From positions 163,593-227,592 of the forward strand of contig NZ_LYRP01000047.1 of NCBI RefSeq assembly GCF_001655675.1: a DNA stretch of 64,000 bases, written 5' to 3'. Made by a program: the position numbers and the translations under genes. Numbering within the stretch: the first letter of the stretch is position 1; every line of letters begins with the position of its first letter. This DNA comes from Mangrovibacter phragmitis (lineage in GTDB: Bacteria; Pseudomonadota; Gammaproteobacteria; Enterobacterales; Enterobacteriaceae). Positions 38,711-44,829 of this stretch are shown here, in pieces. Under the pieces are notes generated by a model. That model was not told the DNA's origin. It searched no databases and was given only the letters and a program-made list of their open reading frames with translations.

Positions 38711-39187
38711 TCAGAGGTATTCTACCTTGATGATTTCAAATTCAACTAACCCACCAGGGGTGTTAATTCCTACGATATCATCGGCTTCTTTACCAATCAG
38801 CCCACGAGCAATTGGTGAGTTAACAGAGATAAGATTCTTTTTAAAATCGGCCTCGTCATCACCAACGATACGGTAAGTTTGCTCTTCTTCGGTATCAAGA
38901 TTCAGTACAGTTACCGTTGCACCAAAGATAACACGACCATTGTTAGGCAACCTGGTCACATCGATAACCTGTGCATTAGACAGCTTGCCTTCAATATCCT
39001 TGATACGGCCTTCACAAAAGCCTTGTTGCTCACGCGCAGCATGGTATTCGGCATTTTCCTTTAAATCACCGTGCTCACGCGCTTCGGCGATGGCTGCGAT
39101 GATCTCCGGACGGCGAACGCCCTTCAGAAACTCAAGCTCTTCGCGCAATTTTTCGGCGCCACGTAAAGTCATCGGAATAGCTTGCAT
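38711..39187 (-). CDS. greA: Transcript cleavage factor GreA
   Basis: A 158-aa factor that enters the RNA polymerase secondary channel and stimulates cleavage of backtracked RNA. The N-terminal coiled coil (about 1-75) carries the acidic tip DLKENAEY near residue 41. The C-terminal FKBP-like domain follows. The start at 39187 has GAGG 6 nt upstream; the longer frame upstream is the leader. A leader terminator lies at 39285-39320. Confidence 0.97.
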
Positions 39188-39284: not shown

Positions 39285-39320
39285 AAACAAAAGAAAACTA
39301 CCCCGAAGCAAAGCTTCAGG
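39285..39320 (-). ncRNA. Attenuator-like terminator in the greA leader (GraL-like)
   Basis: On the minus strand CCTGAAGC-TTT-GCTTCGGGG (39320-39301) is followed by TAGTTTTCTTTTGTTT. It is about 100 nt upstream of the greA start. In E. coli the greA leader yields short GraL RNAs by termination in the same place; the identity here is inferred from position and structure. Confidence 0.55.
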
Positions 39321-39430
39321 CTAGTCGTATTTCGCATTTTGATACGTATTTTAACCTGAAGTTCCCCGGGGGTCATCGTTTACTTTACAGGGGATTGCAC
39401 CGTAGTATGACGGCACGTTTCCAGGTTTTA

Positions 39431-40873
39431 ATGCCAAAAATTATGCGATTTTTACATTTAGCTGTTGGGCTGGTTTTATCCTTCGCCTTAGAAGCTCAGG
39501 CTGCAAATATTGATGAATACGTCAAACAACTCCCACCAGGCGCTAACCTCGCGCTTCTGGTGCAAAAAGCGGGCTCAGATACGCCGCTTATTGATTACCA
39601 TGGCCAACAAATGGCACTGCCCGCCAGTACTCAGAAAGTGATAACGGCTCTCGCAGCCCTGTTATCGCTCGGCCCTGATTACCGTTTCACAACAACCCTT
39701 GAAAGCCATGGAAACATCAATGACGGGATTTTGCAAGGAGACCTTATAGCAAGGTTCACCGGCGACCCGACATTGAAGAGGCAGCAATTACACAATATGG
39801 TAGCCAGCCTGAAAAAGGCGGGAATTACAAAAATTCAGGGAAATATCTTAATTGATACATCGGTATTCGCCAGCCACGATAAAGCCCCCGGCTGGCCATG
39901 GAATGATATAACGCAATGCTTCAGCGCTCCGCCATCTGCGGCTATCGTCGATAAAAATTGTTTTTCCGTATCCCTTTCCAGTCCACGTCCCAATGAAACG
40001 GCTACGGTGCGCCTGGCATCGTATTACCCTGTTCATGTGTTTTCTAATGTGCGAACACTTGCCCATGGTTCTGCAGATGCCAAATATTGTGAACTGGATG
40101 TCGTCACAGGTGACCTGAATCGCTACACATTAACAGGTTGCCTGACCCAGCGTGAAGACCCATTACCTCTCGCGTTCGCTGTACAGGACGGGGCCAGCTA
40201 TGCCGGTGAAATACTCAAAGATGAGTTGAATAGTGCGGGAATAACCGTGAGCGGAACACTGATTCGCCAAACTCGAGTAAACCAGCCAGGGCAGGTTTTA
40301 GCCTCCACGCAGTCTGCTCCCCTCCATGATTTACTACGCATGATGCTAAAAAAATCTGACAACATGATTGCTGATACTGTTTTTCGCACTATTGGGCGGG
40401 AAACCCTGGGGGTTCAGGGAACCTGGCGGGCAGGCGCAGATGCTGTTCGCCAAATCCTGAAGCAGAAGGCTGGTATCGATTTAGGTAACACTATTCTGGT
40501 GGATGGTTCAGGTTTATCACGCCATGACCTGATTTCGCCTTCAACCATGATGCAAGTGCTACAATTTATTGCCAAAAATGATAATCAGCTAAACTTTATC
40601 TCAATGCTGCCACTGGCCGGCCATGATGGCACGCTGCAATACCGGGCCGGGCTGCATGAAGCAGGAGTGGATGGGAAGGTTTCAGCCAAAACAGGATCAT
40701 TGCAAGGGGTGTATAACCTTGCAGGGTTCATTACAACGGCATCCGGGCAAAAACTGGCATTTGTTCAATATCTTTCTGGTTATGCCGTTGAACCCGGCGA
40801 CCAACGTAACAGAAGGATACCGCTGGTACGCTTTGAAAGCCGACTCTACAAAGACCTCTATCAGAATAACTAA
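39431..40873 (+). CDS. dacB: D-alanyl-D-alanine carboxypeptidase/endopeptidase PBP4 (DacB)
   Basis: A 480-aa class C penicillin-binding protein. A signal peptide ends at EAQA-AN near residue 28. Catalytic motifs: SxxK in ASTQKV near residue 67, SxN in KSDNMIA near 311, and KTG in SAKTGS near 422. It trims pentapeptides and cuts cross-links in the periplasm. The start at 39431 is chosen for CAGG 6 nt upstream; MRFLH at 39443 and an ATG at 39407 are alternatives. The stop is only 2 nt before the basR ATG, so it forms one transcript with basRS; divergent from greA. Confidence 0.94.
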   Translation: MPKIMRFLHLAVGLVLSFALEAQAANIDEYVKQLPPGANLALLVQKAGSDTPLIDYHGQQMALPASTQKVITALAALLSLGPDYRFTTTLESHGNINDGILQGDLIARFTGDPTLKRQQLHNMVASLKKAGITKIQGNILIDTSVFASHDKAPGWPWNDITQCFSAPPSAAIVDKNCFSVSLSSPRPNETATVRLASYYPVHVFSNVRTLAHGSADAKYCELDVVTGDLNRYTLTGCLTQREDPLPLAFAVQDGASYAGEILKDELNSAGITVSGTLIRQTRVNQPGQVLASTQSAPLHDLLRMMLKKSDNMIADTVFRTIGRETLGVQGTWRAGADAVRQILKQKAGIDLGNTILVDGSGLSRHDLISPSTMMQVLQFIAKNDNQLNFISMLPLAGHDGTLQYRAGLHEAGVDGKVSAKTGSLQGVYNLAGFITTASGQKLAFVQYLSGYAVEPGDQRNRRIPLVRFESRLYKDLYQNN

Positions 40874-40875
40874 TT

Positions 40876-41538
40876 ATGAAATTACTCATTGTTGAAGATG
40901 ATTTACTGCTACAAGAAGGACTGGCTCTGGCACTGAATGGTGACGGATACGCTGTAGATACTGCAGCGACAGCAAATGATGCCGACGCGCTGATTCAAAG
41001 TGGTGAATACAGTCTGGTGATTCTGGATCTTGGGCTACCCGATAAAGACGGAGCAACACTACTCAGCCAATGGCGCCGAAGAGGGCTAAAAACTCCGGTA
41101 TTGATTCTGACTGCAAGGGATGCACTGGAAGACCGGGTCAGTGGTCTTGATGCAGGCGCAGATGACTACCTGGTAAAACCCTTTGCGCTGGCCGAATTAC
41201 AAGCCCGTGCCCGGGCTCTTATTCGCCGTTACCAGGGGCACAGTGACAATCTGTTGCAACATGATGACCTCACATTAAACCTCCAGACTCAACAAGTGTT
41301 GCTGCAAGGTAACGCTGTGGAAGTCACCCCCAAAGAGTTTGCTTTGCTGACCCGTCTGATTATGCGAGTTGGCCAAACTGTTCACCGGGAAACACTTCAG
41401 CAGGATCTCTATAGTTGGCAGGACGATCCTGGCTCAAATACCCTTGAGGTTCACATTCATAATCTGCGACGCAAGCTGGGTAAAGAACGCATCAAAACTG
41501 TTCGTGGCGTTGGCTATCGTCTGGAGAACCGGGTATGA
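40876..41538 (+). CDS. basR: Response regulator BasR (PmrA)
   Basis: A 220-aa OmpR/PhoB-type regulator. The receiver covers 1-115 with the acidic pocket (Glu7, Asp8), phospho-acceptor Asp51 in VILDLGLP and Lys in LVKPF; the winged-helix DNA-binding domain covers about 125-218. In relatives phosphorylated PmrA activates lipid A modification genes that lower polymyxin binding. It follows dacB by 2 nt, without a clear Shine-Dalgarno, and overlaps basS by 4 bp. Assignment as BasR rather than the related QseB rests on resemblance of the whole pair; fairly sure. Confidence 0.85.
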   Translation: MKLLIVEDDLLLQEGLALALNGDGYAVDTAATANDADALIQSGEYSLVILDLGLPDKDGATLLSQWRRRGLKTPVLILTARDALEDRVSGLDAGADDYLVKPFALAELQARARALIRRYQGHSDNLLQHDDLTLNLQTQQVLLQGNAVEVTPKEFALLTRLIMRVGQTVHRETLQQDLYSWQDDPGSNTLEVHIHNLRRKLGKERIKTVRGVGYRLENRV

Positions 41539-42593
41539 ACAGTATGCGTCGGCGTTTAATGGCAATGCTGGCGTTAATTTTTCTTTTCTTTCAACTTGTC
41601 AGCGTATTATGGCTGTGGCACGAAAGCCAGGAGCAAATTGGGTTCCTGGTCAATGAAACGCTGTCTGCCCGTACACGTAATCACCATGTTGAAAAAGAGA
41701 TCCACGAAGCCATAGCCTCATTATTAGTTCCTTCACTGGTTATGGTTGGCTTTACACTGTTTTTTTCTTTTCTGGCAGTGTCCTGGATTATCCAGCCACT
41801 CAACAAACTCAGTCGTAGTCTTGTTAACCGTTCCGCCGACAACCTTAGCCCATTACCCATGTTTTCCGAGATGGAAGAGATGGTAGCAGTCACCACGGCC
41901 CTCAATCAATTACTGTCCCGTCTGGAAAGTACCATTCAGCAGGAACGATTATTTACCGCCGATGCCGCCCACGAATTACGTACCCCACTGGCTGGTATTC
42001 GCCTTCATCTTGAGCTTATGGCCCAGTCCGGAAATAAACAGGCTGATTCGCTGATCCAGCGACTGGACCAACTGATGCATGTCATCGAACAGTTGTTAAT
42101 GCTATCCCGGGCAGGACAAGCCTTAGCCAGTGGGCATTATGATACGCACCAGTGGTGGAAAGATATTATCGAACCACTTCAGGAGGAAATGACAGAGATG
42201 GCTGAGAGGCATAATCAACGGATTATCTGGCCGGAAGATACTGGTCTCTCTGTGCAGGGGGACCCGGTGCTATTACGCCTGCTGCTCCGTAATCTACTGG
42301 AAAATGCCTGGCGGTATAGCCCTCAAGGGAGTTGTATCGAAATCCGCTTACAGGAAGAAAACAATGGCGCACATCTTCAAGTGCTGGATGAAGGGCCGGG
42401 CATCGACGAAGCTCACCGAAAAACTATTACGGAACCATTTCGTCGCCTGGATCAACGCTATGGTGGCAGCGGGCTTGGGCTCAACATCGTGCGGCGTATT
42501 GTGCAACTGCACCGGGGAAAATTGCTGATAGATAACCGTACTGATAGCCAGGGTTTGAATGCAGGTTGCTGGTTCCCGGATCATATTGATTGA
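41535..42593 (+). CDS. basS: Sensor histidine kinase BasS (PmrB)
   Basis: A 352-aa inner-membrane kinase. Two membrane helices (about 8-28 and 63-86) enclose a very short periplasmic loop with two ExxE motifs (Glu30-Glu33 and Glu55-Glu58), the type of site that binds ferric iron and aluminium in Salmonella PmrB. HAMP about 87-140; phospho-acceptor His146 in AAHELRTPLAG; ATP-binding N, G1 and G2 boxes in LRNLLENAWRYSP, DEGPGID and GGSGLGLNIV. The ATGA overlap with basR indicates coupled translation. It converges on obgE, separated by a terminator. Confidence 0.87.
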   Translation: MNSMRRRLMAMLALIFLFFQLVSVLWLWHESQEQIGFLVNETLSARTRNHHVEKEIHEAIASLLVPSLVMVGFTLFFSFLAVSWIIQPLNKLSRSLVNRSADNLSPLPMFSEMEEMVAVTTALNQLLSRLESTIQQERLFTADAAHELRTPLAGIRLHLELMAQSGNKQADSLIQRLDQLMHVIEQLLMLSRAGQALASGHYDTHQWWKDIIEPLQEEMTEMAERHNQRIIWPEDTGLSVQGDPVLLRLLLRNLLENAWRYSPQGSCIEIRLQEENNGAHLQVLDEGPGIDEAHRKTITEPFRRLDQRYGGSGLGLNIVRRIVQLHRGKLLIDNRTDSQGLNAGCWFPDHID

Positions 42594-42616: not shown

Positions 42617-42650
42617 GCAAAAAAGTAAGGCCGGGAAACCCGGCCTTACC
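42617..42650. terminator. Terminator between basS and obgE
   Basis: An 11-bp stem GTAAGGCCGGG-AAA-CCCGGCCTTAC (42625-42649) has six A bases before it, giving TTTTTT on the minus strand behind obgE. On the plus strand the T run is missing, so it is mainly the obgE terminator. Confidence 0.85.
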
Positions 42651-42668
42651 TGCAAAGCTACGTGGAGA

Positions 42669-44829
<2,161 letters not shown>

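Follow-up and report, generated by a model that had tools for sequence, protein, structure and literature searches.

Conserved placement of basRS behind dacB in a clade of Enterobacterales and its likely expression as a single unit

In the 64,000-nucleotide stretch of Mangrovibacter phragmitis DNA analysed here (the window), basR and basS, which encode the PmrA/PmrB two-component system, lie directly behind dacB, the gene for PBP4, and the three genes likely form a single transcription unit. The placement is neither unique to the window nor new, as it has already been published. The features of the locus are:

38711-39187, minus strand: greA, divergent neighbour (ORF list and neighbourhood comparison)
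39290-39411, minus strand: greA leader (RF01769), antisense to the stretch before dacB (Rfam, 106.7 bits; gathering threshold 60)
39443-40873, plus strand: dacB, PBP4 (D-Ala-D-Ala carboxypeptidase/endopeptidase), 476 amino acids (above the cut-off of NF008322/TIGR00666; start from a 45-row alignment)
40874-40875, plus strand: dacB-basR junction of 2 nt, without Shine-Dalgarno or terminator; likely site of stop-restart coupling
40876-41538, plus strand: basR/pmrA, response regulator, 220 amino acids (NF007928, 387.8 bits; cut-off 330)
41535-42593, plus strand: basS/pmrB, sensor kinase, 352 amino acids, with two ExxE motifs in the periplasmic loop (NF008025, 543.4 bits; cut-off 314)
42623-42651, minus strand: terminator-like hairpin between the convergent basS and obgE, with its T-run on this strand
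42669-43847, minus strand: obgE, convergent neighbour (ORF list and neighbourhood comparison)

The window DacB matches the PBP4 model with 799.3 bits (NCBIfam cut-off 527), and BasR and BasS are both equivalog-level NCBIfam matches to PmrA and PmrB that pass their cut-offs, with BasS being 96-97% identical to that of two Mangrovibacter genomes. The dacB stop codon (TAA, 40871-40873) is separated by 2 nt from the basR ATG at 40876, no anti-Shine-Dalgarno duplex was found in the 20 nt preceding basR, and the basS ATG at 41535 overlaps the end of basR (stop at 41536-41538) by 4 nt, so that the reading frames, the sequence and the anti-Shine-Dalgarno search bear out the short gap without a clear Shine-Dalgarno and the 4-bp overlap described for this locus in a preliminary description. 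The sole correction to what had been observed there concerns the dacB start, given as 39431 and best put at 39443: the ATG at 39443 is present in all 45 aligned dacB genes and the protein read from it matches the PBP4 model from the model's first position, while the ATG at 39431 occurs in the alignment only in three Mangrovibacter-type rows. The flanks are occupied by greA on one side and by obgE followed by yhbE on the other and, as had been noted, eptA is absent nearby. The divergent greA and dacB share one control region, where a sequence at 39338-39365 on the minus strand (GGAACTT...TCAAA) resembles a sigma-E promoter for greA; it is conserved in the dacB/greA alignment.

A single search of genome contigs yielded 75 loci, 59 of which carry dacB, basR and basS in that order, in Serratia, Yersinia, Rahnella, Rouxiella, Ewingella, Cedecea, Shimwellia, Mangrovibacter and other genera, in agreement with the earlier belief that the placement is common to other genera; 13 further loci, of lower identity, have basRS without dacB, and the remaining 3 are distant kinases. 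Exactly one PmrB per genome was found in the 23 genomes searched whole (E-value 1e-40), and a search of 246 genomes of the family, a sample with many reduced genomes in which 123 have no PmrB at the cut-off, gave 124 PmrB matches in 123 genomes. Every one of the 53 close PmrB relatives in this sample (at least 58% identity) is encoded immediately after dacB, compared to none of the 71 at 54% identity or below, among the DacB matches listed (the best 137, the last low-identity ones being left out). Of these 71, 64 lie behind eptA and 7 behind neither gene; one genome outside these 137 matches (G121) was checked through its own stretch, which holds no dacB. The adjacency of dacB and basRS thus exceeds chance (53/53 vs. 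0/71). An eptA homologue is found elsewhere in the genome in 49 of the 53 dacB-linked genomes, and in that of the window it lies at G000:C2:28868-30442.

The window has pmrAB directly behind dacB and its sequence belongs to the dacB-type clade. It shares the regulator and sensor families, including the ExxE motifs of the sensor, with the pmrCAB systems of E. coli and Salmonella, which differ in that eptA directly precedes the regulator genes and the operon promoter carries a strong PmrA box, where the window has dacB and no box; eptA-type PmrBs are 43-54% identical to that of the window, and the order eptA-basR-basS was indeed found in E. coli, as previously stated. The ExxE motifs of the window PmrB (ESQE and EIHE) are both kept, as judged by eye, in 48 of 49 aligned rows and lost only in L129. 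Among described systems, dacB-pmrAB of Cronobacter sakazakii BAA894 was reported to be "under the same operon" (Hua et al. 2020, PMC7326031); it comes from a different genus than the window, the functional relationship is called unknown in that paper, and the word "promoter" is absent from its main text. A third pmrAB site without pmrC, 'locus 3', which has its own sequence variant and is also used by Y. pestis, has been proposed as a possible ancestral locus (Microb Genom 2024, PMC11004495), and is probably the dacB site, although the main text of that article does not name dacB.

The notion that dacB is co-transcribed with basRS and translationally coupled to it finds support as probable in the shortness of the gaps and the lack of a terminator. 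In all 60 dacB-type loci (the 59 named above and the window), the three genes follow each other tightly on the same strand, with a dacB-basR gap of 2-33 nt in 59 and of 68 nt in one, and with the 4-nt basR-basS overlap in 52. For the window and the loci closest to it, the gap measures 2-4 nt, without a clear Shine-Dalgarno, and most Serratia have a Shine-Dalgarno that overlaps the dacB stop or lies just behind it. Terminator-like hairpins 3' of dacB were found in none of 24 linked genomes, in neither of two genomes with a lone basR and in 10 of 19 unlinked ones; this count follows a looser rule, which replaced a first scan that was too strict (0/24 linked, 4/19 unlinked). The literature listed for dacB together with pmrAB or basRS showed no mapping of a dacB-basRS transcript, and dacB is not mentioned in the available text of PMC2565834 and PMC3140997.

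The main alternative, which we regard as unlikely, is that basRS is driven by a promoter of its own inside dacB, in which case the adjacency would only reflect a landing site and readthrough from dacB would be minor. Salmonella basRS does have an internal promoter within its eptA-type operon, and the terminators behind dacB in 10 of the 19 unlinked genomes mean that insertion there would have been possible without co-regulation. Against it, a 2-nt gap without a Shine-Dalgarno suits coupling, and a strong promoter inside dacB, the finding named earlier as one that would speak against a single unit, was viewed indirectly through synonymous conservation: this is clearly raised only at the 5' end and first codons of dacB, in linked and unlinked genes alike, as fits the divergent greA control region, and the comparison of the two gene sets revealed nothing convincing that is specific to linkage. 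Two weak rises occur in linked dacB (z of 1.8 at 39587-39631 and at 39857-39901), and as promoters can be poorly conserved, the scan leaves room for one inside the gene. A promoter scan found no promoter-like site on the plus strand of dacB, which says little since it detected fewer sites than in its own shuffles.

A genome-wide scan with a PmrA consensus gave 18 matches, compared to 13 for a control pattern, and was dropped as uninformative alone in favour of a weight matrix, built from the scan that detects the boxes of eptA-type loci. In these positive controls, 15 of 16 eptA genes match 11-12 of 12 positions between -61 and -64 and the sixteenth matches 10 of 12 at -64; a further locus (L061) has no eptA match. 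With this matrix, whose training sites come from the other BasR type, so that the site of dacB-type BasR could differ, a PmrA box at a shuffle fraction of at most 0.05 was found in 20 of the 22 stretches upstream of eptA taken from dacB-type genomes, that of the window included (four of the 22, whose start could not be located, were scanned whole). Before dacB, the same threshold was reached in two of the 24 linked and four of the 19 unlinked stretches and in neither of the two with a lone basR; the hits are a string roughly 255-280 nt upstream that, by its position, falls within greA. Apart from this string, the 24 linked stretches show no recognizable PmrA box ahead of dacB. The earlier call for a search for eptA and PmrA boxes is answered by an eptA elsewhere in the window genome with a candidate box, ATTAAGGTTTTACTAAT, which none of 60 shuffles equals, and by a weak candidate before arnB, CTTAAGTCTTTTCTAAG, which matches 11 of 12 positions while 10% of shuffles are equally good. 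The eptA box often reads [AG]TTAAGGTTnnnCTAA[TG] in dacB-type genomes, compared to CTTAAGGTTnnCTTAA in eptA-type ones (L181-L200, L124, L126), hinting that BasR and its site may have changed together.

The eptA part of the regulon therefore looks conserved while the dacB-basRS operon lacks a box of its own, and with a box on eptA and none on dacB, eptA is probably regulated by PmrA in trans, and the dosage of basRS would follow the dacB promoter without PmrA feedback. The opposite view, that dacB is itself under PmrA control and that wall trimming responds jointly with LPS modification, could draw on the gene order kept across the whole clade and on the one genus that retains basR and not basS behind dacB, but is most improbable given that linked genomes have no PmrA box ahead of dacB and that their pre-dacB region resembles that of unlinked ones. 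The previously suggested link between wall turnover and LPS modification is accordingly not supported, and appears weak beyond shared expression; if dacB and basRS are coupled at all, control would go in a single direction, with the dacB promoter setting the dosage of basRS.

We thus favour a scheme in which the ancestral dacB promoter, facing greA, would start one dacB-basR-basS transcript, ribosomes finishing dacB would probably translate basR by stop-restart across the 2 nt, and basS would be translated through its 4-nt overlap with basR. BasS would sense the envelope signal and BasR, recognizing PmrA boxes, would activate eptA and arn in trans, while in the predicted absence of such a box on its own operon, BasRS dosage would follow a housekeeping-type promoter, without the feedback found in the eptA-basRS operon. 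As a whole, we consider this scheme probable. Published RNA-seq data from a C. sakazakii pmrA deletion bear on it in two ways (PMC7326031): pmrB falls to 0.44 of wild type, which could mean feedback or transcript damage, and eptA is not lowered (1.16 of wild type), which counts against simple activation of eptA.

In a joint tree, the dacB-type and eptA-type sequences form separate clades, with a support of 100/100 for the former. Because another family of the order (f24) has eptA-basR-basS in 4 of 6 complete stretches, the eptA linkage is probably the older one and the dacB placement derived, an order that we infer from a tree drawn at midpoint and that differs from the published suggestion of a possibly ancestral locus 3 (PMC11004495).

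Both genomes sampled from one genus (g94) carry an intact basR-like gene 3 nt behind dacB and no basS there (L174 2866-3531 and L175 2886-3551, both on the minus strand), as well as an eptA-type pmrAB elsewhere. In the BasR tree, this lone basR falls inside the dacB clade. The two copies are 67% identical, with the frame open in both species and a dN/dS of about 0.12, a rough value as synonymous change is near saturation, compared to 0.01-0.06 for seven dacB-linked basR pairs and 0.017 between the DacB proteins of these two genomes; judged by these rates, the gene is fast-evolving yet intact. A search for this lone basR in 15 named genomes (13 eptA-type, 2 dacB-type) gave no match beyond the usual basR of the two genomes of dacB type. 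The g94 state is, as we read it, a replacement in progress of the dacB-linked by the eptA-linked pmrAB.

PmrAB is most familiar from a small number of species in which it is linked to eptA. Should the dacB-linked form lack positive feedback, it would respond to iron, acid or polymyxin in a more graded way and its level would depend on a wall gene, in which case conclusions from Salmonella would not be transferable to Serratia, Yersinia, Cronobacter and their kin. We tentatively suggest, as a possibility short of an even chance, that Enterobacterales have two PmrAB wirings, one eptA-linked and self-amplifying, the other dacB-linked, without feedback and with its dosage set by a housekeeping wall-gene promoter, and that, where the first replaces the second, selection can preserve the dacB-linked basR on its own, perhaps for a function connected with dacB.

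Some loci depart from both arrangements. In L130 and L131 (genomes G026 and G121), basRS adjoins neither dacB nor eptA, with a PmrB identity of 53-54%, and both pairs switch sides between the BasR tree and the BasS tree. Genome G049 has, beside an intact dacB-basRS, a second, lone eptA-type PmrB (L129, 3659-4813, minus strand) behind what the reading frames suggest is an outer-membrane porin-like gene; its H-box has no histidine (VASALQMP for AAHELRTP) and both ExxE motifs are lost. Genus g139 (L125-L128) has the two PmrAB types in separate species, the dacB-type in G253 and the other, without an adjacent eptA, in G161.
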